A stretch of DNA of 32,201 nt from a virus. The notes beneath the pieces are model-generated. The model ran no database searches. It was not told where the DNA came from and saw only the letters and a list, made by a program, of their open reading frames with translations. Position 1 is the first letter of the stretch, and each line of letters opens with the position of its first letter. A program made the translations under genes and the position numbers. The stretch spans positions 1 to 32,201 of the IMG/VR virus record IMGVR_UViG_3300020205_001593, one strand, 5' to 3'. This document shows positions 1 through 9,161 of the stretch, one piece after another.

Positions 1-15
1 CTATCTTGCGTTTGT

Positions 16-44
16 GGGGAGTGTCCCACCGTGGGACACTCCCC
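16..44. repeat. TGTCCCAC palindrome, copy 1 (14-bp arms)
   Basis: The core TGTCCCACCGTGGGACA (22-38) is extended on both sides by GGGGAG/CTCCCC to a perfect inverted repeat with 14-bp arms around one central base. It lies just after the stop codon of the helicase gene. As RNA it would form a long GC-rich hairpin without a U tract, so it may be a terminator or processing site. The invariant core could equally be a protein-binding site. Confidence 0.8.
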
Positions 45-52
45 TAGGTTGG

Positions 53-1648
53 TCAGCGGTACGAGTCCAACAGTTCGTTGGCTGTTGAACCGCCGACCAA
101 GGTCTCAGCCTCGTCGTCAAGGATGGCGCCGACGACGCCTGCCTTGCCTTCAAGCATGCCCCACAGACGCTCATCAACCGACGAGTCGCCATCAAGGGCA
201 CTGACCAAGATGTTGTTGGTGCACGGGCGTGTCTGCCCATACCGATGGAGCCGAGCCTCGGCTTGCTTGAGTGCGCTCGGTGTCCACGGCAATTCAACCG
301 TGATCATCGTCGCACCTGAGGTCATCGTGAGTCCCTCGGACACCGCTTGGATGTTTCCGATCAACACACGGGCAGTGCCAGCCTGCCATTTGTCAACGGC
401 ATCCTGCTTCTGCTTGCCCGAGTCGTCGCCAGTCACGGAGACGATGGTGCGAGCATCCACACCCTCAGCGATCAGTGCCTCACGCAACTTCCAAGCCACC
501 TCACGGTGGGCGGTGACAAGGAATACTTGCTCGCCCTCGTCTAAGAGGCTCACAGTGGCGTCTACGGCGGTGCTGACCTTGCCGAGACCAGCGATCTGTC
601 GCAACTGCCCGAGCAGGACAATGGCGTGCGCCCTCTCATTGAGAGAGAAACGATCATCGTCACGCTTCTCCTGCAAGAACTCCTCAAGGTCTCGCACGGC
701 TCGCTTGTAATCCGTGACAGCCTTGCCAGTCAATGCGACGGGCGTGATGTACCGAGAGAACTCGGGGAGGATGATGACATCCTCACGCTTGCGCCTGATC
801 ATGACCCACTGGGTGAGTTGCTCGTTCAACTCCTTGATGTTGCTGGCGCCATTGAATGTCGTGCCCCAGCCGTTGAAGACGGGGTCGCAGTAGCGAGTCT
901 TGAAGCGACTCGCACCACCGAACCTCGGCAGGTGACCGAGGATGTTGAGCAGTGGGATTAACTCCACTGGTCGGGACAACATCGGCGTTCCCGAGAGCAA
1001 CAAGATCGGAGCCTCGGGGTTGAGGTTCTTGGCAATGGTGACCATCGCCTTTGACCGACCCGAGTCCTCGCTCTTGGAGCGGTGCGCCTCGTCTTGAACC
1101 AAGCCAGCCCAAGCGTGCTTGGCGAGGACATTGACGGGCTTGGGCGTGCGCTGTTCACGGGTCTTGCCCTGACTGGCTCGTGCCCATGCATTGACTTGGG
1201 CGACAGGAGCCAGCGCCCAATACTGGACAACCGAGTCGGGGCAGATCACGATGTCGGCGTTGGGGACTGTTGAGGGCTTCTGCCCTGCGATGCGAGCCAC
1301 CGAGCGGTGTGGGAGCGCCATCTTGATGGAGCGTTCCCAGTTGATCACGAGTGCTGGTGGGCACACGATCAAGGCAGGGTATGCGTTGAGTTCGTCAAGC
1401 GCCAGCAAGGCGCTGTAGGTCTTGCCGACTCCCATGTCGTCAGCGATGAGCAGGCGAGTGTGACCAGCCTTGACAACTTCACCGATGACCAACTGGTGGG
1501 GCATCGGCGTGATGGCGAGAGTGTGCTCTACGATGCCCTCAGGGGCGATGCGATTACTGAATGGGCGCAAGCCCGTGCTGACCTTGGCGACAGCCTCAGC
1601 GAGGATGTCATGGGCGTTGCGTGCGTTGGTGCGGTCACTGAGTGCCAT
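53..1648 (-). CDS. SNF2-family DEAD-like helicase/ATPase
   Basis: A 531-residue superfamily 2 helicase-like ATPase, expected to translocate on or remodel DNA during phage replication or recombination. Visible motifs in order: a Q-like residue near 52, Walker A DDMGVGKT (70-77), DEAH (186-189), SGTP (219-222, motif III), then motifs V/VI in the C-terminal RecA lobe ending in QAEARLHRYGQ, a hallmark of SNF2/SMARCAL1-like enzymes. The upstream in-frame ATG at 1708 lies inside a palindromic repeat. I chose the ATG at 1648 because AAAGGAG lies 6 bases before it and the protein then begins MALSDRTNAR. It is the last minus-strand gene in the window. Its promoter-like box (1675-1684) and two palindromes flank it. 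Family assignment is secure; the precise role is inferred. Confidence 0.93.
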   Translation of the reverse strand: MALSDRTNARNAHDILAEAVAKVSTGLRPFSNRIAPEGIVEHTLAITPMPHQLVIGEVVKAGHTRLLIADDMGVGKTYSALLALDELNAYPALIVCPPALVINWERSIKMALPHRSVARIAGQKPSTVPNADIVICPDSVVQYWALAPVAQVNAWARASQGKTREQRTPKPVNVLAKHAWAGLVQDEAHRSKSEDSGRSKAMVTIAKNLNPEAPILLLSGTPMLSRPVELIPLLNILGHLPRFGGASRFKTRYCDPVFNGWGTTFNGASNIKELNEQLTQWVMIRRKREDVIILPEFSRYITPVALTGKAVTDYKRAVRDLEEFLQEKRDDDRFSLNERAHAIVLLGQLRQIAGLGKVSTAVDATVSLLDEGEQVFLVTAHREVAWKLREALIAEGVDARTIVSVTGDDSGKQKQDAVDKWQAGTARVLIGNIQAVSEGLTMTSGATMITVELPWTPSALKQAEARLHRYGQTRPCTNNILVSALDGDSSVDERLWGMLEGKAGVVGAILDDEAETLVGGSTANELLDSYR

Positions 1649-1674
1649 GTGTGGCTCCTTTGGTTGTGGTGGTG

Positions 1675-1684
1675 TCACTATCAG
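1675..1684 (-). promoter_or_regulatory. Conserved CTGATAGTGA box upstream of helicase
   Basis: On the minus strand this reads CTGATAGTGA and begins 27 bases upstream of the ATG at 1648. The same ten bases sit at the identical distance before the genes starting at 3124 and 3379. TGATAG fits a -10 hexamer. At this gene, 17 bp further upstream, GGGACA (end of palindrome copy 2) could serve as a -35. Promoter role is inferred. Confidence 0.55.
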
Positions 1685-1693
1685 ACTAGCGGA

Positions 1694-1725
1694 GGGGGAG
1701 TGTCCCACGGTGGGACAACTCCCCC
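1694..1725. repeat. TGTCCCAC palindrome, copy 2 (bulged 15-bp arms)
   Basis: Core 1701-1717. Flanks GGGGGAG and CTCCCCC extend pairing to 15 bp with one unpaired A at 1718. It lies between the stop of the gene at 1733 and the promoter-like box of the helicase gene, with its GGGACA placed 17 bp upstream of TGATAG. It could therefore act as an operator overlapping a -35 element. Confidence 0.8.
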
Positions 1726-1732
1726 AATGTAA

Positions 1733-1966
1733 TCAGGCTGGCGTGACCGTGTCAGACACAGTCGGCTCGCCAGCGATGATGTCTTGCTCACGGAAGACGC
1801 GAGCGATTTCTCGCTGTGCGCCCCACTTGGTGGTGGTGGTGCGAGTGAACCATTCGTTTCGGATTGGGTCAGCGAATGGGTTTGGGTGCACGATGTGCAC
1901 TCGGCTGAACCACTTGCCGAAGCCCAGTCTGTAGATTTCTATCTCGTAGTGCTGTTGCTGTTTCAT
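1733..1966 (-). CDS. Small unknown protein (77 aa)
   Basis: A 77-residue protein I do not recognise. It has a Gln-rich start (MKQQQHYEIEIYRL), an aromatic middle with several Trp/Phe residues and a threonine run before KWGAQREIARVFRE, which looks like an amphipathic helix. It has no signal peptide or membrane segment. GAGGAGG lies just before the ATG, supporting the start. On the minus strand TAATAT (1997-2002) is placed 31 bases before the ATG and is a good -10 hexamer. It sits between palindrome copies 2 and 3 and is probably expressed from its own promoter with the other left-arm genes. Confidence 0.72.
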   Translation of the reverse strand: MKQQQHYEIEIYRLGFGKWFSRVHIVHPNPFADPIRNEWFTRTTTTKWGAQREIARVFREQDIIAGEPTVSDTVTPA

Positions 1967-2034
1967 GTGTGTTTGCCTCCTCGGCGTTGTTGGTTGATAT
2001 TAGGTCTAACGATTTGCTGACAGGGAAATGTGCA

Positions 2035-2053
2035 CTGTCCCACGGTGGGACAG
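2035..2053. repeat. TGTCCCAC palindrome, copy 3 (9-bp arms)
   Basis: Core 2036-2052, extended by one C/G pair. It lies between the stop of the gene at 2067 and the start region of the gene at 1966. Weak further pairing (GTG/CAC with a two-base mismatch) surrounds it. Confidence 0.78.
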
Positions 2054-2066
2054 CACACACTGAAAC

Positions 2067-2588
2067 TCACCAAGACGATGAGTACTCAAACTCCCAGCCC
2101 TTGCTGGGGATGAACTCGCTCAGGAGTTTCCACAGTTGATCTACGGTGTACCGCAGACCCTCTAGATACCACTCGTCGTAATTTGTGCCCCCGAAGAAGA
2201 AGCCCTCGGTGGTTGGGAGGTGTTCCTGAGCGTAGGCAACCCCACGCTCGGACACCCATTCACCATTGACTGTCTCGCCCCAAACAAACTCGCCCAGCAC
2301 CTTGAGGCAGAGTTCGTGGAGGTTCCACAACTGGTCGTGGCTGACGGGGTACTTGGCACAGTTGTCTTCGCCACCCTGAACATTATCCACGAACCAGTTG
2401 TGAATGGCGTTGGCTTTGCGCCACTGTGCCACCGTGATGTCCACGGTGACATACGGGTGGTCGTCTCCGACGATCTCGGAGGCATCAACCGCCGAGATGA
2501 TCTCGGCGTGCATACGGCGCTCGTAGTCCGTGCTCCACTGACCACCGCTGATGAACTTCTTGGCTGATAAAAACTGATCTAATCCCAT
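2067..2588 (-). CDS. Conserved phage protein, MGLD-type N-terminus
   Basis: A 173-residue soluble protein with the start MGLDQFLSAKKFISGG, resembling a widespread phage family of unknown function that begins MGLDMYL and has a lysine/aromatic-rich first strand. The rest is acidic and Trp-rich, with WRKANAIHNWFVDNVQ near residues 56-71 and a Trp-rich helix (YTVDQLWKLLSEF) close to the C-terminus. AAGGAG precedes the ATG at 2588. A structured spacer upstream (2630-2778) could form its leader. Family resemblance comes from the N-terminus; no enzymatic motif is visible, so no function is offered. Confidence 0.82.
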   Translation of the reverse strand: MGLDQFLSAKKFISGGQWSTDYERRMHAEIISAVDASEIVGDDHPYVTVDITVAQWRKANAIHNWFVDNVQGGEDNCAKYPVSHDQLWNLHELCLKVLGEFVWGETVNGEWVSERGVAYAQEHLPTTEGFFFGGTNYDEWYLEGLRYTVDQLWKLLSEFIPSKGWEFEYSSSW

Positions 2589-2629
2589 GACGGGTTCTCC
2601 TTGTTGGTTGGTGGTTGAATTGCCGTAGA

Positions 2630-2738
2630 CACCCTCCCCACTTTTGGCAGATCACTGATGATTTCTCATGGATGATCAGACCTAGTTGCCTTTACTCGCA
2701 ACGGTGGGGAGGGTGCTTCGGGAGTTTGTTGTCCCGAA
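2630..2738 (-). promoter_or_regulatory. Structured leader between genes at 2588 and 2786
   Basis: This spacer holds a perfect 12-bp inverted repeat (CACCCTCCCCAC at 2630-2641 and GTGGGGAGGGTG at 2704-2715) separated by 62 bp. Next to it is a 7-bp hairpin TTCGGGA/TCCCGAA (2717-2738, 8-nt loop). With palindrome copy 4 just upstream it forms three consecutive helices ahead of the MGLD-type gene. It contains no ORF. It may be a regulatory leader, or a set of terminator/antiterminator structures. Confidence 0.45.
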
Positions 2739-2753
2739 ATCTTGAGGTTGGTT

Positions 2754-2778
2754 GGGGTGTCCCACCGTGGGACACCCC
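2754..2778. repeat. TGTCCCAC palindrome, copy 4 (12-bp arms)
   Basis: Core 2758-2774, extended by GGGG/CCCC to perfect 12-bp arms around one base. It lies 7 bases past the stop codon of the minus-strand gene ending at 2786, where a terminator would be expected. Confidence 0.8.
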
Positions 2779-2785
2779 GAGGGGG

Positions 2786-3124
2786 TCATCCGAAGACGAG
2801 AGCACCGAGCACGATGTGCTGGAGCACCACATCGCTGGCGTCGGCGTCAAAGTCGTCGCTGTCCACGGCGACCAGCACGACATGCCATCCAGCCCTCTGC
2901 TCCTTGATGATGTCGTTGACGACATTCAAAGCGTGAGTCGGGCTGAAGGTCAACTTGACCAGCAGTGGCTCGCCAGTGGCGTCGTCGGTCTCGCCTGTTT
3001 CCATCTGACAGACGATAGTCCCGTCAATGTCGTGCAACTGGCGATACCAGTCGTAGGTTTCGGCTCCTGCGCCGACAAGGTGGTCAATGATGTCTTCCGC
3101 TGTTGCTTTCCATACTGTCTTCAT
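2786..3124 (-). CDS. Small unknown protein (112 aa)
   Basis: A 112-residue acidic protein of unknown function (begins MKTVWKATAEDIIDHLVGAG). The pattern of alternating hydrophobics in VKLTFSPTHALNVV and WHVVLVAVDSDDFD suggests an alpha/beta fold. The C-terminus is hydrophobic (IVLGALVFG) but too short for a clear membrane anchor. GAGGAGG lies 4-5 bases before the ATG. The promoter-like CTGATAGTGA box is 27 bases upstream. The spacer between this gene and the next upstream one is a near duplicate of the spacer at 3383-3441. Confidence 0.75.
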   Translation of the reverse strand: MKTVWKATAEDIIDHLVGAGAETYDWYRQLHDIDGTIVCQMETGETDDATGEPLLVKLTFSPTHALNVVNDIIKEQRAGWHVVLVAVDSDDFDADASDVVLQHIVLGALVFG

Positions 3125-3186
3125 GTTGCCTCCTCAGGCGTTGTGGTGGTTCACTATCAGATGTTTGTGGGGGAGTCAGTCGTTGA
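3125..3186 (-). repeat. Duplicated leader/stop-codon spacer, copy A
   Basis: This stretch matches 3383-3441 almost base for base. Both contain the ribosome site GAGGAGG, the CTGATAGTGA box, a GACTCCCCC run, and the last two codons (Asn-Asp) plus stop of the preceding gene. The duplication includes coding sequence, so it arose by duplicating a segment with a gene boundary, or by recombination between gene cassettes. Confidence 0.7.
3151..3160 (-). promoter_or_regulatory. Conserved CTGATAGTGA box upstream of gene at 3124
   Basis: The same decamer at the same 27-base distance from the ATG as at 1675 and 3406. It is probably a -10 element (TGATAG) with a fixed untranslated leader. Confidence 0.55.
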
Positions 3187-3379
3187 CCAACACACCGTCA
3201 TGGTCGCCGTAGGCATATGCGTCAACGACTCGGGCGCCGATCTCTCGGGCGACTTCCCGTGCCCATGCCTTGGCACGGGCGACAGCGACCTGAGGGTTGC
3301 TGGTGCGAACGAGGTCGGAGTGCTCGTGCTCTTCGCCATCGGGCGTGATGAGTGAGATGTGGATGGTGTAGTTCTTCAT
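3176..3379 (-). CDS. Small unknown protein (67 aa)
   Basis: A 67-residue protein of unknown function. An in-frame ATG at 3409 would add ten residues but falls in the promoter-like box. I chose the ATG at 3379, preceded by GAGGAGG, giving MKNYTIHISLITPDGEEHEH. The first half reads as two beta strands with an Asp-Gly turn. The second half, VAVARAKAWAREVAREIGAR, is an Ala/Arg-rich helix. The layout resembles small phage proteins with one helix packed on a sheet, but I cannot name a family. Confidence 0.75.
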   Translation of the reverse strand: MKNYTIHISLITPDGEEHEHSDLVRTSNPQVAVARAKAWAREVAREIGARVVDAYAYGDHDGVLVND

Positions 3380-3382
3380 GCT

Positions 3383-3441
3383 GTTGCCTCCTCGGGCGTT
3401 GTGGTTCACTATCAGATGTTAAGGGGGAGTCAGTCGTTGAG
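3383..3441 (-). repeat. Duplicated leader/stop-codon spacer, copy B
   Basis: Second copy of the segment at 3125-3186, including GAGGAGG, the CTGATAGTGA box and the Asn-Asp-stop end of the neighbouring gene. Confidence 0.7.
3406..3415 (-). promoter_or_regulatory. Conserved CTGATAGTGA box upstream of gene at 3379
   Basis: Third copy of the decamer, again starting exactly 27 bases upstream of the chosen ATG. This fixed spacing also supports the start at 3379. Confidence 0.55.
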
Positions 3442-3753
3442 AAAAATCCAAGAACCTTCAATGCCTTGAACTTTACAACCCGACTCGCAGATGTCGTAAG
3501 TGCCGAGCGTCGTCACGATGCGCCCATTGGCAACCGTTGCTCCGTTGGCGAGCAACCAATCTATGTGTGCGTGCGCTCTTGCGAGTGAACTTGTAGCCCT
3601 CGTTGCGTCGGCAGTAACATCGCTCCACCGATCAGGCGTGTAGGTAACTGCAATGTCACGGATTTGGATTTTGTTGCCACCGTTGCGAGCGTTCCGCAAA
3701 GCAAAGATCGTCACGCCTTTGTAGGTTGTGTGTTCTTTCATTGTGGTCTTCAT
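3430..3753 (-). CDS. Small unknown protein (107 aa)
   Basis: A 107-residue protein of unknown function. A longer reading from 3822 would translate through palindrome copy 5. The ATG at 3753, after GAGGAGG, is preferred. It gives MKTTMKEHTTYKGVTIFALR. The middle (RDIAVTYTPDRWSDVTADATRATSSLARAHAHIDWLLANG) combines a strand and a long helix, followed by GRIVTTLGTYDICESGCKVQGIEG with two cysteines. It ends in Asn-Asp, like the neighbouring gene, because its 3' end is part of the duplicated spacer. Confidence 0.75.
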   Translation of the reverse strand: MKTTMKEHTTYKGVTIFALRNARNGGNKIQIRDIAVTYTPDRWSDVTADATRATSSLARAHAHIDWLLANGATVANGRIVTTLGTYDICESGCKVQGIEGSWIFLND

Positions 3754-3792
3754 GGTGTGCCTCCTCGGCGTTGGTGGTGGTTGATGGGGAGT

Positions 3793-3825
3793 GGGGTGAG
3801 TGTCCCACGGTGGGACACTCACCCC
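3793..3825. repeat. TGTCCCAC palindrome, copy 5 (16-bp arms)
   Basis: Core 3801-3817, extended by GGGGTGAG/CTCACCCC to perfect 16-bp arms, the longest of the set. It sits between the stop codon at 3835 and the start of the gene at 3753. Confidence 0.82.
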
Positions 3826-3834
3826 GAGGGGCGG

Positions 3835-4593
3835 TCAGGCTCCGATTTGAGTTGCCACCGTGACGCTGGCGACTCGCAAGACCGTCTTGGTCTCGTCGTC
3901 AGCAATCGGGGCGACATTGGCGCTCGCCTCAAGCAGTGCGACTGCGAGCAGTGCGAACACCTTGTGGTCGTCGGCGCCTGAGGCGACGAGGTTGGCAACG
4001 ACTGGGGCAATCGCCTCAGCGCCATCTTCGGTCAGGTTGGCAATGATCTCGGCAAGGGTGAACGCCACCACTTCGTCGTCGGCGCTGTCTTCGGCGCCCT
4101 CGGTCTCGGCTTCAGCCTTGGCAGGCTTGTCAGCCTTTTTGGCTTCGCTCTTCTCAGCCTTGTTGATCTTGGCGAGCACCTCAAGTGCATCGGCGCTCTC
4201 ATCCTTGATGAGGATGGCTCCTGCTTTGGCATAGCGAGCGAACGACGACTTGCTGATCTTCTTGCCAGCGGTCTTGGATGCTTGCTCAAGCGCACGGAAC
4301 GAGACGCCAGCCTCGTTGGCATTGAACACGGCGATGCATGCCGAGCGCAAGGCAACCTTGGCGTCGGCAACTGCATCTTCGGACTTGATGGCTTCAGTCA
4401 CTGCGATTGCCAACAGGTCGGCAGGCACTGCCTTGACTTCAACGACTGGCACTTCAACGACTGCGACTGGCTTGGCTTTGGGTGTGGTCTTCACTTTGGT
4501 GGTCTCCTTGTGGTTGGTGGTGGGGAAGTTGGTGTGGGCTGGCAAACCAGCGAGCAGATTGGCAAGTCCTACGGGGCGGTCAGTGGTCTTCAT
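3835..4593 (-). CDS. Ala/Lys-rich protein with possible HTH segment
   Basis: A 252-residue protein of unknown function from the ATG at 4593 (weak AAAGGA site). Composition is strongly biased: an N-terminal Pro/Val/Lys stretch, a helical region (residues ~60-130), a charged linker of Lys/Ala/Glu (~135-170), and a hydrophobic Ala-rich helical end. FRALEQASKTAGKKISKSSF at about 100-119 could be a helix-turn-helix, suggesting DNA binding. A second plausible start is the GTG at 4494, with a strong AAGGAG 9 bases upstream. It also gives a protein beginning Met-Lys-Thr-Thr, so the leader and N-terminus may have been duplicated. It is the first gene of the minus-strand arm. Confidence 0.75.
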   Translation of the reverse strand: MKTTDRPVGLANLLAGLPAHTNFPTTNHKETTKVKTTPKAKPVAVVEVPVVEVKAVPADLLAIAVTEAIKSEDAVADAKVALRSACIAVFNANEAGVSFRALEQASKTAGKKISKSSFARYAKAGAILIKDESADALEVLAKINKAEKSEAKKADKPAKAEAETEGAEDSADDEVVAFTLAEIIANLTEDGAEAIAPVVANLVASGADDHKVFALLAVALLEASANVAPIADDETKTVLRVASVTVATQIGA

Positions 4594-4616: not shown

Positions 4617-4633
4617 TGTCCCACGGTGGGACA
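4617..4633. repeat. TGTCCCAC palindrome, copy 6 (core only)
   Basis: Only the 17-bp core is present, with no extended arms. It lies upstream of the first minus-strand gene rather than after a stop codon, so it cannot be a terminator for a known gene. This favours a role as a protein-binding operator at the left-arm promoter. Confidence 0.75.
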
Positions 4634-4654
4634 TGGTGGACAGGTGAGTTTGAT

Positions 4655-5370
4655 CTCTACGCCCGAGGCGCCTGCCCGAATTGCGATTGATCATGTATGT
4701 CTCCAAGATCGGTGGAGTCACGCCCTACGCCTGCGTTGATTAGGCAACTGTTTACGAACGGCTCGCCAACCTTGGTGATTGCTAGTCACCGATACATCGT
4801 TTATTTTTAGGTATCCATCGGACTCTCCAACAGCGCACAGGTGGCGGTGCATATCGTTGGTCACTTGATCTTGGTGAAGTTTGCTCGTCGTATCGGCTCG
4901 GCGCTCGCCCTCATACTCACCAGCGTCGCTGGGGCGCATCTCGGTCATTCCTTGTGCGGACATCCGCTAGGAGTAACCATCACGGCGTGAGCCTGTGATG
5001 CTTGAGTGTTTGGGTTCACGCTCTGCTGAGTGTCTGTTACCAAGTCCCGAGGGACTGCTGAGTGCTTCTGCTTGGCACACCGCTTGTCAGGCTGGTGTGG
5101 TGGGCTGGCTCATTCTGCACAGACACCCGTTGATACTGGAGAAGCCCGAAATTGTTTGGGCGCTTCAGATCAGAGGTGTGGTCTCATGGGGTTCTGAGTC
5201 TACTTGTCGGTCAGAAGTTCAGGTTGCTTTCGCATTTCGTCTACCGCCGATGTGCTGGCGTTCCCACTAGGTGGGGCAGGACTACCTGTCGTTCTGATCG
5301 CCGTTCGGCTATTTGTCAAATTGTGTTGTGTTGTGGGAGTTGGTGAGAATGTCTCACCGACTCTTTTTTT
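4655..5370 (+). ncRNA. Candidate large structured RNA ending in intrinsic terminator
   Basis: A roughly 0.7-kb stretch without a credible ORF but dense in hairpins. It ends in an intrinsic terminator on the plus strand. Visible helices include 4660-4670, 4701-4717, 4729-4745, 4774-4790, 4920-4932, 4978-5000, 5004-5023, 5040-5075, 5076-5099, 5141-5166, 5192-5216, 5263-5275, 5275-5290 and 5300-5309. The best is 4978-5000: CATCACGGC, a GTGA tetraloop of the GNRA class, GCC, one bulged T, then GTGATG. CTGCTGAGTG occurs twice (5023-5032, 5055-5064). The 3' end is well defined; the 5' end is not, and the core could start near 4970. Size and phage context recall GOLLD and ROOL RNAs, but I cannot match a family by eye. 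No tRNA is embedded. Confidence 0.5.
5338..5370 (+). terminator. Strong rho-independent terminator
   Basis: An 11-bp stem (5338-5348 with 5352-5362, one G-T pair), a 3-base loop, then C and seven T residues. No protein-coding gene precedes it on this strand, so it most likely ends a non-coding transcript. Confidence 0.88.
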
Positions 5371-5564
5371 ACTTGCTCGTTTTCCTTACAAATGAATCAT
5401 GACACATGACCCCCCGTTTCAAAAAATGTGTATCGCCGTTTTGGGACATAAGTGCTGGTCAGGGCACATAAAAAAACTTTATATTTATTTTCAAATAGGG
5501 GGTAAATGGGTCAATTCCCTGCTGTTTTGTGTGATCTCAGGGATATGGCTTGATTTGGTTAGAA

Positions 5565-5842: not shown

Positions 5843-5897
5843 GTTGTTGCATTTGCAACTACTTTGGAATGTGCCTCTACGCTGGGCATATGCGAGC
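5843..5897 (+). repeat. Control-region direct repeat, copy 1
   Basis: Begins with GTTGTTGCATTTGCAACTAC, containing the palindrome GTTGCA-TT-TGCAAC (5846-5859). It continues through CTTTGGAAT and, after a diverged stretch, ACGCTGGG...TATGCG. The same order occurs at 5947-6001. A candidate iteron or operator. Confidence 0.7.
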
Positions 5898-5913
5898 AAA
5901 AGGCTCCAAAACC

Positions 5914-5944
5914 GCTCAAATGCTCAATGTTTGAGCGATTGAGC
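5914..5944. promoter_or_regulatory. Four-half-site dyad (GCTCAA x2 / TTGAGC x2)
   Basis: GCTCAA at 5914 and 5922, TTGAGC at 5931 and 5939. Both nested pairs share one symmetry centre at 5929, and same-orientation half-sites are spaced 8 bp apart. This suits a multimeric DNA-binding protein. It lies exactly between the two copies of the direct repeat. Confidence 0.65.
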
Positions 5945-5946
5945 AT

Positions 5947-6001
5947 GTTGTTGCAAATGCAACTACTTTGGAATTGACCCCACACGCTGGGGTTATGCGC
6001 G
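5947..6001 (+). repeat. Control-region direct repeat, copy 2
   Basis: Matches copy 1 over its first 28 bases except at the palindrome centre (GTTGCA-AA-TGCAAC at 5950-5963), then again at ACGCTGGG...TATGCG. The inverted central bases preserve the palindrome, which suggests selection for dyad symmetry. Confidence 0.7.
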
Positions 6002-6143: not shown

Positions 6144-6161
6144 CCAAATAGCCCTATTCTG
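6144..6161. promoter_or_regulatory. AATAGCCCTATT operator-like site, copy 1
   Basis: The sequence CCAAATAGCCCTATTCTG contains the perfect palindrome AATAG-CC-CTATT. It ends 2 bp before the TATAAT box of the gene at 6175, so a bound protein would block that promoter. Confidence 0.6.
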
Positions 6162-6162
6162 G

Positions 6163-6168
6163 TATAAT
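6163..6168 (+). promoter_or_regulatory. -10 box, leaderless promoter of gene at 6175
   Basis: TATAAT preceded by TGG (extended -10). It ends 7 nt before the ATG at 6175, so transcription should start at the A of the start codon. No ribosome site is present. Confidence 0.7.
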
Positions 6169-6174
6169 TGCAAT

Positions 6175-6411
6175 ATGACACTTGGGCCGCAATTTAACAT
6201 TGATTACCCATACCCACGACTTCGTGAGGCATATGCCAAACATTGGTCTAAAAACTACGCCCAAATGCTCCAAGGTGAGGGAGAAGTAGTATCCCCTGAA
6301 GAATTACATGAGGATGGCATGGACCAGGCCAAGATGCTGATGGAGAATGCGCTGTACGGTGACGACTATTCTAAAAAATTGCTGTACAAAGGCTTCCAAA
6401 ATAGGCACTAA
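6175..6411 (+). CDS. Small unknown protein, first right-arm gene (78 aa)
   Basis: A 78-residue acidic, helical protein (MTLGPQFNIDYPYPRLREAY at the start; GEVVSPEELHEDGMDQAKML in the middle). The open frame extends far upstream, but the ATG at 6175 is fixed by the TATAAT box placed for leaderless initiation. I do not recognise a family. It is the first plus-strand gene after the control region. Operator-like palindromes lie on both sides of it, so it may be an early product or a regulator. Confidence 0.7.
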   Translation: MTLGPQFNIDYPYPRLREAYAKHWSKNYAQMLQGEGEVVSPEELHEDGMDQAKMLMENALYGDDYSKKLLYKGFQNRH

Positions 6412-6448: not shown

Positions 6449-6464
6449 CCAAATAGCCCTATTC
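6449..6464. promoter_or_regulatory. AATAGCCCTATT operator-like site, copy 2
   Basis: CCAAATAGCCCTATTC with the perfect palindrome. Not next to an obvious -10 box, as expected for an auxiliary site. Confidence 0.55.
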
Positions 6465-6510
6465 CACGAGGAGCGACCCGATAAATGGTAATTTCTCAGG
6501 GGAATGTAAA

Positions 6511-6525
6511 CCAAAAGCCCTATTC
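6511..6525. promoter_or_regulatory. AATAGCCCTATT operator-like site, copy 3
   Basis: CCAAAAGCCCTATTC; one palindrome arm is degenerate. Confidence 0.45.
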
Positions 6526-6538
6526 GCTTAACATTCTC

Positions 6539-6556
6539 CCAAATAGCCTTATTCTG
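6539..6556. promoter_or_regulatory. AATAGCCCTATT operator-like site, copy 4
   Basis: CCAAATAGCCTTATTCTG. It lies 3 bp before the TAAAAT box of the next gene, almost the same geometry as copy 1. Confidence 0.55.
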
Positions 6557-6559
6557 ATG

Positions 6560-6565
6560 TAAAAT
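6560..6565 (+). promoter_or_regulatory. -10 box, leaderless promoter of gene at 6572
   Basis: TAAAAT ending 7 nt before the ATG, the same spacing as at 6163-6175. No ribosome site. Confidence 0.65.
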
Positions 6566-6571
6566 AAGTAC

Positions 6572-7045
6572 ATGGCTCCTAAAATCGTATATCACGGCAC
6601 TTTTGAGTCCCAACCACCGCATGAGTACAATCAAGACACCTTTCATGCAGGTACACGAAAGGCTGCAGAGGAACGCCTAGACGAGGCAGAGGAATCTGGT
6701 GGCATTGCCACCATGCATGCCTATGAGATATCCGATACTGCGCCTACTTCCCGCAGGAAAACTTGGGCAGACCCATACGCAAACAGCGATAATGTTGTCC
6801 CTGAGCATAAAACTAATCGTATTTACCCATACACAAATGAGGTGGAAGACAGTGGCTCTACTTCTTATGTTATTCCTAACCAATTTGTCGGCAGGCATGT
6901 AAAACACCTCGGCCCACAGTTCCAAGAACTGCGTGGGGAAGACGGAAAAACGATTGCCAATGCCATGTCCACCATGTTGGGCGGTAAATACTACGACAGA
7001 ACCGCATATGAGCCTGCTGATGAGGAGTATGGTGATGGCATCTAA
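6572..7045 (+). CDS. HGT-motif protein, paralogue 1 (possible ADP-ribosyltransferase fold)
   Basis: A 157-residue protein beginning MAPKIVYHGT. The HGT at residues 8-10, preceded by hydrophobics, followed by FHAGTRKAAEERL (24-36), recalls the first two motifs of PARP-like ADP-ribosyltransferases. That is a motif-level resemblance only, and I cannot place the third (Glu) motif. The rest has HAYEIS, RIYPY and SYVIPNQFVGRHVKHLG blocks. It is clearly paralogous to the next gene. Its last 20 or so residues (KYYDRTAYEPADEEY) are instead shared with the end of the third gene, so the tail is modular. Translation is probably leaderless. Function unknown. Confidence 0.8.
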   Translation: MAPKIVYHGTFESQPPHEYNQDTFHAGTRKAAEERLDEAEESGGIATMHAYEISDTAPTSRRKTWADPYANSDNVVPEHKTNRIYPYTNEVEDSGSTSYVIPNQFVGRHVKHLGPQFQELRGEDGKTIANAMSTMLGGKYYDRTAYEPADEEYGDGI

Positions 7046-8259: not shown

Positions 8260-8745
8260 ATGAGACGACACCTCGGTAAGCAATTTACCAAATTAACTAG
8301 AAATCCTGGCGATAACCCCGAACAGTTGCAGATGTTCATGCGACCACATGAGATTCTGAGCAAACTCTACGGCTTTGCCGATGACACGCAGAACTACGAT
8401 TTTGGTGACGATGAGGACTTTGGCGACCCCATCACCCCAAAAGATTACCCCGACAGTCAACTACACGAAGATAAACTTCAAGAGGCTAAAGATTCTGGGC
8501 TGCACGACAGTATTGAGACTGAAGGCATCAGGAACCACATCGTCCTACAAACAAGTCCACACACAACACAGTTCCGCATGGGTAATGGTCACCACCGACT
8601 CTCAGTCGCCTTAGACTTAGAGAGCAAGGGTCGTCAGGTACACATCCCAGTTATCCATGACAGTGACATAATGCATGACACCTACGATGAATACAAAACA
8701 CGCTACGGGAGACCTAACCGCCCTGAATGGGACTGGGCTGAGTAA
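8260..8745 (+). CDS. ParB/sulfiredoxin-like domain protein
   Basis: A 161-residue protein. GLHDSIETEGIRNHIVLQ (80-97) followed by FRMGNGHHRLSVALDL (105-120) is the ParB/Srx nuclease-like core, in which the G-x-G-H-H-R loop binds nucleotide. Related phage proteins have been implicated in DNA binding, nuclease or CTP/ATP hydrolysis; the specific role here is unknown. The N-terminus carries EQLQMFMRPHEILSKLYG, matching EQLVMF blocks in three downstream paralogues. An acidic linker (DFGDDEDFGD) separates the two parts. It begins directly after the preceding stop codon. Confidence 0.82.
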   Translation: MRRHLGKQFTKLTRNPGDNPEQLQMFMRPHEILSKLYGFADDTQNYDFGDDEDFGDPITPKDYPDSQLHEDKLQEAKDSGLHDSIETEGIRNHIVLQTSPHTTQFRMGNGHHRLSVALDLESKGRQVHIPVIHDSDIMHDTYDEYKTRYGRPNRPEWDWAE

Positions 8746-8747
8746 GG

Positions 8748-8753
8748 TATAAT
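8748..8753 (+). promoter_or_regulatory. -10 box upstream of gene at 8784
   Basis: GGTATAAT followed by AAGTA; predicted start near 8760 gives a short leader containing AAGGAG (8772-8777). Confidence 0.6.
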
Positions 8754-8783
8754 AAGTAAGCATTACCCGATAAGGAGCCTCTC

Positions 8784-9161
8784 ATGGTTATGAAAAAAGC
8801 AATTGCAAAGCGTCCAGCACATATGTCCGAACAGTTCCAGCCTAAGGGTCGTTCTGAACTACCCCGCTTGAGTGCAGCCCTCGCCTCATACTTGGACGAT
8901 TCGCGAGAGGAACACCAAGCAGAGTTTGGTGACGACGACGACTACGACGACCCGAACAACGGTCAGGCTGAAGAAGAATTCCGCATGGCGCACTCCATCG
9001 CAGAACCATACCGCAACGATAAAGGCTCAGACATTGAGGACTCCGTGGATCAGAATGATGCAGAGGAAATGCTTCTGAACTACCGTCAGCGCCGTGACTC
9101 AGGTCAGAACCAACCGTCCCAACGCGAAGACATCCGTACCGCTTACCAGTTATACCGCTAA
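8784..9161 (+). CDS. Acidic unknown protein (125 aa)
   Basis: A 125-residue protein I do not recognise. A basic N-terminus (MVMKKAIAKRPAHMSEQF) is followed by a very acidic stretch (EFGDDDDYDDP, near 50-60) and a charged helical end rich in Gln and Arg. MSEQFQPKG echoes the QF/QL pattern seen in neighbours. AAGGAG lies 6 bases before the ATG, and a TATAAT promoter is present. Probably a cytoplasmic phage accessory protein. Confidence 0.78.
   Translation: MVMKKAIAKRPAHMSEQFQPKGRSELPRLSAALASYLDDSREEHQAEFGDDDDYDDPNNGQAEEEFRMAHSIAEPYRNDKGSDIEDSVDQNDAEEMLLNYRQRRDSGQNQPSQREDIRTAYQLYR

Follow-up and report, generated by a model that had tools for sequence, protein, structure and literature searches.

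The window, by which we mean the whole stretch of DNA that was analysed, comprises a single IMG/VR phage record (32,201 bases) and is a fragment of a phage of roughly 92 kb. Leftward genes occupy positions 1-4593, including an SNF2-type helicase at 53-1708, and rightward genes, among them tail fibre and terminase, begin at ~6175. Between these two blocks lies a divergent, non-coding junction of 1.58 kb (4594 to about 6174), within which an RNA is flanked by the operator-like palindrome of the leftward operon on one side and, on the other, by non-coding sequence that is conserved and includes a DnaA box. The features of the locus are as follows:

3835-4593, minus strand: leftward gene nearest the RNA, with no family assigned, 72-74% identical in relatives
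4617-4633, no strand assigned: palindrome TGTCCCACGGTGGGACA, operator-like, bordering the RNA on its left and ahead of the leftward operon
4638-5368, minus strand favoured as probable: conserved large structured RNA of about 731 nt, with homologues, covariation, no conserved ORF and A-rich unpaired bases on the minus strand
5443-5512, no strand assigned: AT-rich non-coding block with the hairpin GTGCTGGTCAGRGCAC, nearly identical in relative L029 and not recognisable in L008
5758-5766, minus strand: TTATCCACA, a perfect DnaA box that is also conserved in the junctions of L029, L008 and G003

Using the flanking proteins and a conserved 16-mer as queries, we recovered the same locus in full in L010 (contig 3300042371_000472), L008 (three near-identical contigs) and L029 (3300027798_000035), and in part in L006, where it is broken off at the contig end. 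Together with the window this gave five distinct sequences, one of them partial, which are 77-94% identical; the homologues share 77-83% identity with the window, and two of the five sequences are 94% identical to each other. The conserved unit at 4638-5368 reaches slightly further left than the 4655-5370 first marked out from the window, and whole-record searches found the element once per phage and in a constant position. No homologue was found in isolated phages and plasmids by blastn, beyond the clade by exact 16-mer scans of viral contigs, or, with a GC-rich and over-common 16-mer, among the matches listed from genome contigs. Likewise, when the domain at 4702-4875 was made into a covariance model and run against the fetched loci and 16 phage records, matches came from the same clade only. 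Structured-looking non-coding stretches do occupy the equivalent slot in L070 (7960-8330) and L011 (7830-8310); neither has sequence similarity to the window RNA, no relative was found for either, and the L011 stretch folds no better than shuffles. These are possibly unrelated RNAs that share one position.

The sequence-only reading had proposed a large structured non-coding RNA at this site and had set against it a conserved protein encoded across the region. When this was tested, no reading frame on either strand was conserved among the homologues. Stops and frameshifts break the frames in the relatives, which rules out a protein gene across the region and shows it to be non-coding.

On folding, region 4638-5368 forms many hairpins. 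Their number alone is unconvincing because single-sequence folding only mildly beats shuffles, with modest z-scores of -2.8 (plus strand) and -3.1 (minus strand) for the window and of -1.6 to -2.9 for four homologues on both strands. When the four full sequences were aligned and analysed using RNAalifold, the fold fell 6.5 sd (plus) and 9.4 sd (minus) below shuffles that preserved gaps and the conservation of each column. Both sides had changed in 29-30 pairs, vs 8-11 expected. Folding without G-U pairs treats both strands alike and gives a strand-neutral structure, and such folds on either strand share 165 of about 190 pairs. In a strand-neutral model of 164 pairs, 96.9% of cells pair across the five sequences. 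The covarying helices that had been sought among homologues were found with the four relatives, 24 pairs being changed on both sides vs 12.4 ± 2.1 in shuffles (0 of 500), a count that comes from only five distinct sequences, the 94% identical pair included, and in which many helices are invariant. Pairing falls to about 35% when partners are slid by 1-3 columns, although some of this drop is to be expected, as these same sequences were used to derive the structure. As judged from these alignments, the base-paired structure is shown to be real, nested and multi-domain, and maintained by compensatory change. The proposal of a large structured non-coding RNA was borne out, and the region has the features of a large ornate phage RNA, namely a length of at least 0.5 kb, no coding capacity and extensive covariation-supported structure.

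Read along the minus strand, the structure consists of an end hairpin (5338-5363), a linker, a stacked-helix domain (5207-5301), a branched domain, an invariant hairpin (4979-4999) and a large domain, and includes the following elements:

About 5335-5370, no strand assigned: end hairpin with its stem within 5338-5368, terminator-like on the plus strand (T7 in the window) and a 5' hairpin if the RNA runs leftward
5225-5234, minus strand: UGC-GAAA-GCA hairpin with a GNRA tetraloop that three of the four sequences spanning the site retain
5028-5128, no strand assigned: branched domain with closing helix 5120-5126/5030-5036 (helix 10)
4978-5000, no strand assigned: invariant hairpin with one bulge (helix 16), 100% paired with no variation, the GTGA hairpin of the sequence-only reading
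4663-4944, no strand assigned: large domain with closing long-range helix 4933-4944/4663-4672 (10 bp, invariant) and inner helix 4860-4874/4703-4717 (helices 18 and 22 of the model)
4774-4790, no strand assigned: hairpin of 5 bp whose 7-nt loop reads NYAGCAA on the minus strand (helix 27)

The clearest case of covariation is the closing helix of the branched domain, where all seven pairs are altered on both sides between lineages and none is broken. Three sequences have GUGUCUG/CAGACAC there, and two have UCAGUCA/UGACUGG. Pairing is also preserved in the end-hairpin stem, which reads GAGT../..ACTC in the window vs GAGCA../..TGCTC in L008, L010 and L029. Inside the 4663-4944 domain are inner helices of 13 and 8 pairs. 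The minus strand of the 4774-4790 hairpin pairs in all five sequences via compensatory and G-U changes, and in the model the hairpin either competes with UGCU at 4829-4832 or is joined to it in a pseudoknot. The GAAA-capped hairpin belongs to the stacked-helix domain. At 4978-5000 the singly bulged helix of 9 bp is present as originally described, with its GTGA loop at 4987-4990; this tetraloop is not conserved, the five sequences having GUGA, GAGU, GAGU, GUGA and AAGU. Palindromic loops in the RNA are not conserved.

The RNA strand is probably the leftward (minus) one, which is favoured because its A-rich unpaired bases (A 0.38 and U 0.16 for the minus strand; U 0.38 and A 0.17 for the plus strand) match the sense-strand pattern of the RNase P controls, six subsets in which A is 0.27-0.33 and U is 0.13-0.14. 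AT skew is -0.22 to -0.28 within the RNA vs about 0 in the adjoining non-coding block, and is partly common to the leftward genes. A count of G-U vs A-C by eye gave 7 to 1-3 for the minus strand; with RNase P controls, an automatic count had little power at 4-5 sequences, and alignment z-scores likewise had little power as a strand test. Single-sequence folding energies favour neither strand.

We compared the RNA with known classes using Rfam (4,227 families), and no match with a usable score was obtained in the window or its relatives, with the exception of tRNA and tmRNA in the Streptomyces phages. At E ≤ 10 cmscan returned only chance-level matches, and self-splicing introns, RNase P, tmRNA, SRP and 6S were unmatched. 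GOLLD (RF02032; gathering score 150 bits) and ROOL (RF03087; 99.1 bits) were searched for in the window's record and those of nine relatives, and neither model matched any of these ten phage records at E ≤ 10; for ROOL the controls were silent too, so that this negative is one of the model search by itself. A tRNA island is often the site or neighbour of GOLLD, whereas tRNA genes are lacking in the window and in the near-complete 92.5-kb relative G003. Like GOLLD, which is about 0.8 kb, the window RNA is phage-borne with many helices and no known protein; unlike GOLLD, it matches no model and goes without tRNA genes in the 92-kb relative. It resembles ROOL, which is phage- or prophage-borne and of unknown function, in being a large ornate RNA, but differs in matching no model, in length and in having no tRNA neighbourhood. 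OLE RNA is likewise a large ornate bacterial RNA, of about 600 nt, but is cellular and found mostly in Bacillota, whereas the window RNA has no Rfam match. In phage ICP1, which has no tRNAs, an ORF-less stretch of about 1 kb contains an ncRNA of ~800 nt that is the most abundant ICP1 transcript (PMC7567579). The window RNA, known from sequence alone, is likened to it by description, as ORF-less and from a phage without tRNAs, and by this analogy the ICP1 transcript may share the broad kind "large structured phage RNA". Within that kind, sequence comparison indicates that the window RNA is a new family. The original suggestion had been a divergent GOLLD or ROOL member or else a new class; the GOLLD and ROOL models are unmatched, and a new class is preferred because of the covarying helices and the absence of a match to any Rfam family. 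An antisense regulator of the P4/N15 type was also rejected, as no exact match of at least 13 nt, in either orientation, links the RNA to the remainder of the window; the same type of search against G003 gave one 14-nt antisense match.

The host of the phage clade is probably an actinomycete (Actinomycetota), because a WhiB-family gene is present in G003 and the closest isolated phages by terminase, those of the BRock group (47% identity), infect Streptomyces. The WhiB family is known from actinobacteria and their phages. Streptomyces phage pSt2308 likewise has a divergent non-coding junction, of roughly 1.1 kb; however, the BRock group differs in having many tRNAs, and no homologue of the RNA is present in LuckySocke or pSt2308. 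A temperate lifestyle was considered and rejected, no tyrosine integrase being found in seven records. In L011, a distant relative from a ~93-kb phage, the divergent junction has eleven perfect DnaA boxes (8326-8989) and is likely a DnaA-dependent phage origin. The RNA-bearing junction is probably also a replication origin region, because of its conserved block and DnaA box, because cumulative GC skew in G003 reaches its minimum at this junction, and because of the eleven boxes of L011.

We put about even confidence in the explanation that the element is a new family of ~0.73-kb structured ncRNA from one ~92-kb phage clade, free-standing and most likely leftward. Such an RNA would be transcribed during infection, most likely leftward, would accumulate as a free folded molecule acting through its shape and, by analogy with what has been proposed for GOLLD and ROOL, might serve as a scaffold, a multimer or a sink for protein or ribosomes. 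Expression of GOLLD rises during phage lysis, and ROOL RNA forms an RNA nanocage (PMC12286853). What counts against a free leftward RNA is that no terminator separates it from the operon, none being found on the minus strand between the two in the terminator scan. This same observation favours the main functional rival, in which the leftward operon begins with a very long, structured 5' leader. Transcribed leftward from near 5400-5500 and perhaps processed off, it would control or protect the message of gene 3835-4593 and of the genes that follow. The minus-strand loop composition fits a leader too, as does the end of the RNA 45 nt short of the start codon of this first leftward gene, which is conserved together with it. 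However, the operator-like palindrome separates the gene from the RNA and also stands ahead of leftward genes where this RNA is absent, which makes a separate promoter for the gene probable; 731 nt would also be unusually large, and we consider a leader unlikely. Somewhat unlikely, too, is a free-standing RNA read rightward, from beside the operator to a terminator at 5338-5370, as in the sequence-only reading, which would place the RNA on the opposite strand with no different function. The stem plus T7 of this terminator is present in the window, a T-rich tail (TTTTCCTT) follows the hairpin in L029, paired changes conserve the hairpin itself, and single-sequence folding is neutral as to strand. 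However, the T-run is not conserved (T7 in the window only, GTTTTCC in L029 and a weak GGTTTGT in L008 and L010), a plus-strand RNA would have U-rich, A-poor unpaired bases unlike the RNase P controls, and its GNRA loop is not conserved, whereas the GAAA loop on the minus strand is kept in three of four sequences. The scan found two terminator-like sites vs 2.0 ± 1.3 in shuffles, and because the count equals that of shuffles any significance of the site lies in its stem length.

The free-standing leftward RNA was also weighed against two explanations drawn from its DNA setting. An origin-linked RNA, which would regulate or prime replication from the adjacent phage origin, would fit the conserved DnaA box and AT-rich block on the right, the G003 skew minimum and the boxes in the equivalent L011 junction; the window junction has a single DnaA box, though, and primer RNAs are not usually so elaborate, which makes this very unlikely. 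We regard as extremely improbable an effect at the level of DNA, whether a protein-bound or single-strand DNA structure or template switching at quasi-palindromes that mimics compensatory change. The strong folding signal on both strands and the switch of all seven pairs of helix 10 in one step between lineages would suit it, but covarying pairs occur in about a dozen nested helices, in some of which 50-100 nt separate the two arms, and the unpaired bases are strongly strand-skewed.

Very few classes of large structured RNA are known in bacteria and phages, and two of them form RNA-only cages of unknown purpose. If the free-standing RNA is real, an unrelated class backed by covariation, in tRNA-less phages and next to a likely origin, would extend this diversity beyond the catalogue, and such RNAs would not be bound to tRNA arrays. 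That it is further a class of ~730 nt which accumulates in infection and self-assembles like GOLLD and ROOL, with its gene next to the replication origin and not within a tRNA island, and with relatives bearing unrelated RNAs in the slot, is an analogy we think decidedly unlikely to hold in full. The sequence set provides concrete material for probing, cryo-EM and knock-out.

Several smaller elements were seen around the RNA. The palindrome GTCCCAC(C/G)GTGGGAC is repeated among the leftward genes of the window (six copies, at 23, 1702, 2037, 2759, 3802 and 4618), often with flanks that extend the inverted repeat, and all sites found in G003 by the same pattern lie in the leftward arm (74-92 kb; L215, L216). 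Other versions are GTCCCGA-type in L029 and L006, GTGCGTTACGGTAACGCAC in L011 and TGCCGTGTGGCA in L070, and from their sequence and placement the palindromes look like a phage-specific operator set. A leftward protein of repeated helix-turn-helix units (G003 79181-79747; L215) is a candidate binder. One of the palindrome sites in G003 (92090) falls inside the RNA, where a hairpin of L010 and L008 copies the operator with a single mismatch, GTCCCATGGTGGGAC; the stems of the window and L029 differ there. On the other side of the junction, the motif TAGCCCTATTC occurs ahead of rightward genes (window 6149-6182 and 6454-6580) and also in G003, L029 and L011. TATAAT at 6163-6168 sits just before an ATG, only a few bases upstream, which suggests that the rightward mRNAs may be leaderless. 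Finally, inverted copies of GTTGCATTTGCAAC lie in the right part of the junction (5846-5968), with one copy in L029 and G003, and are possible binding sites.
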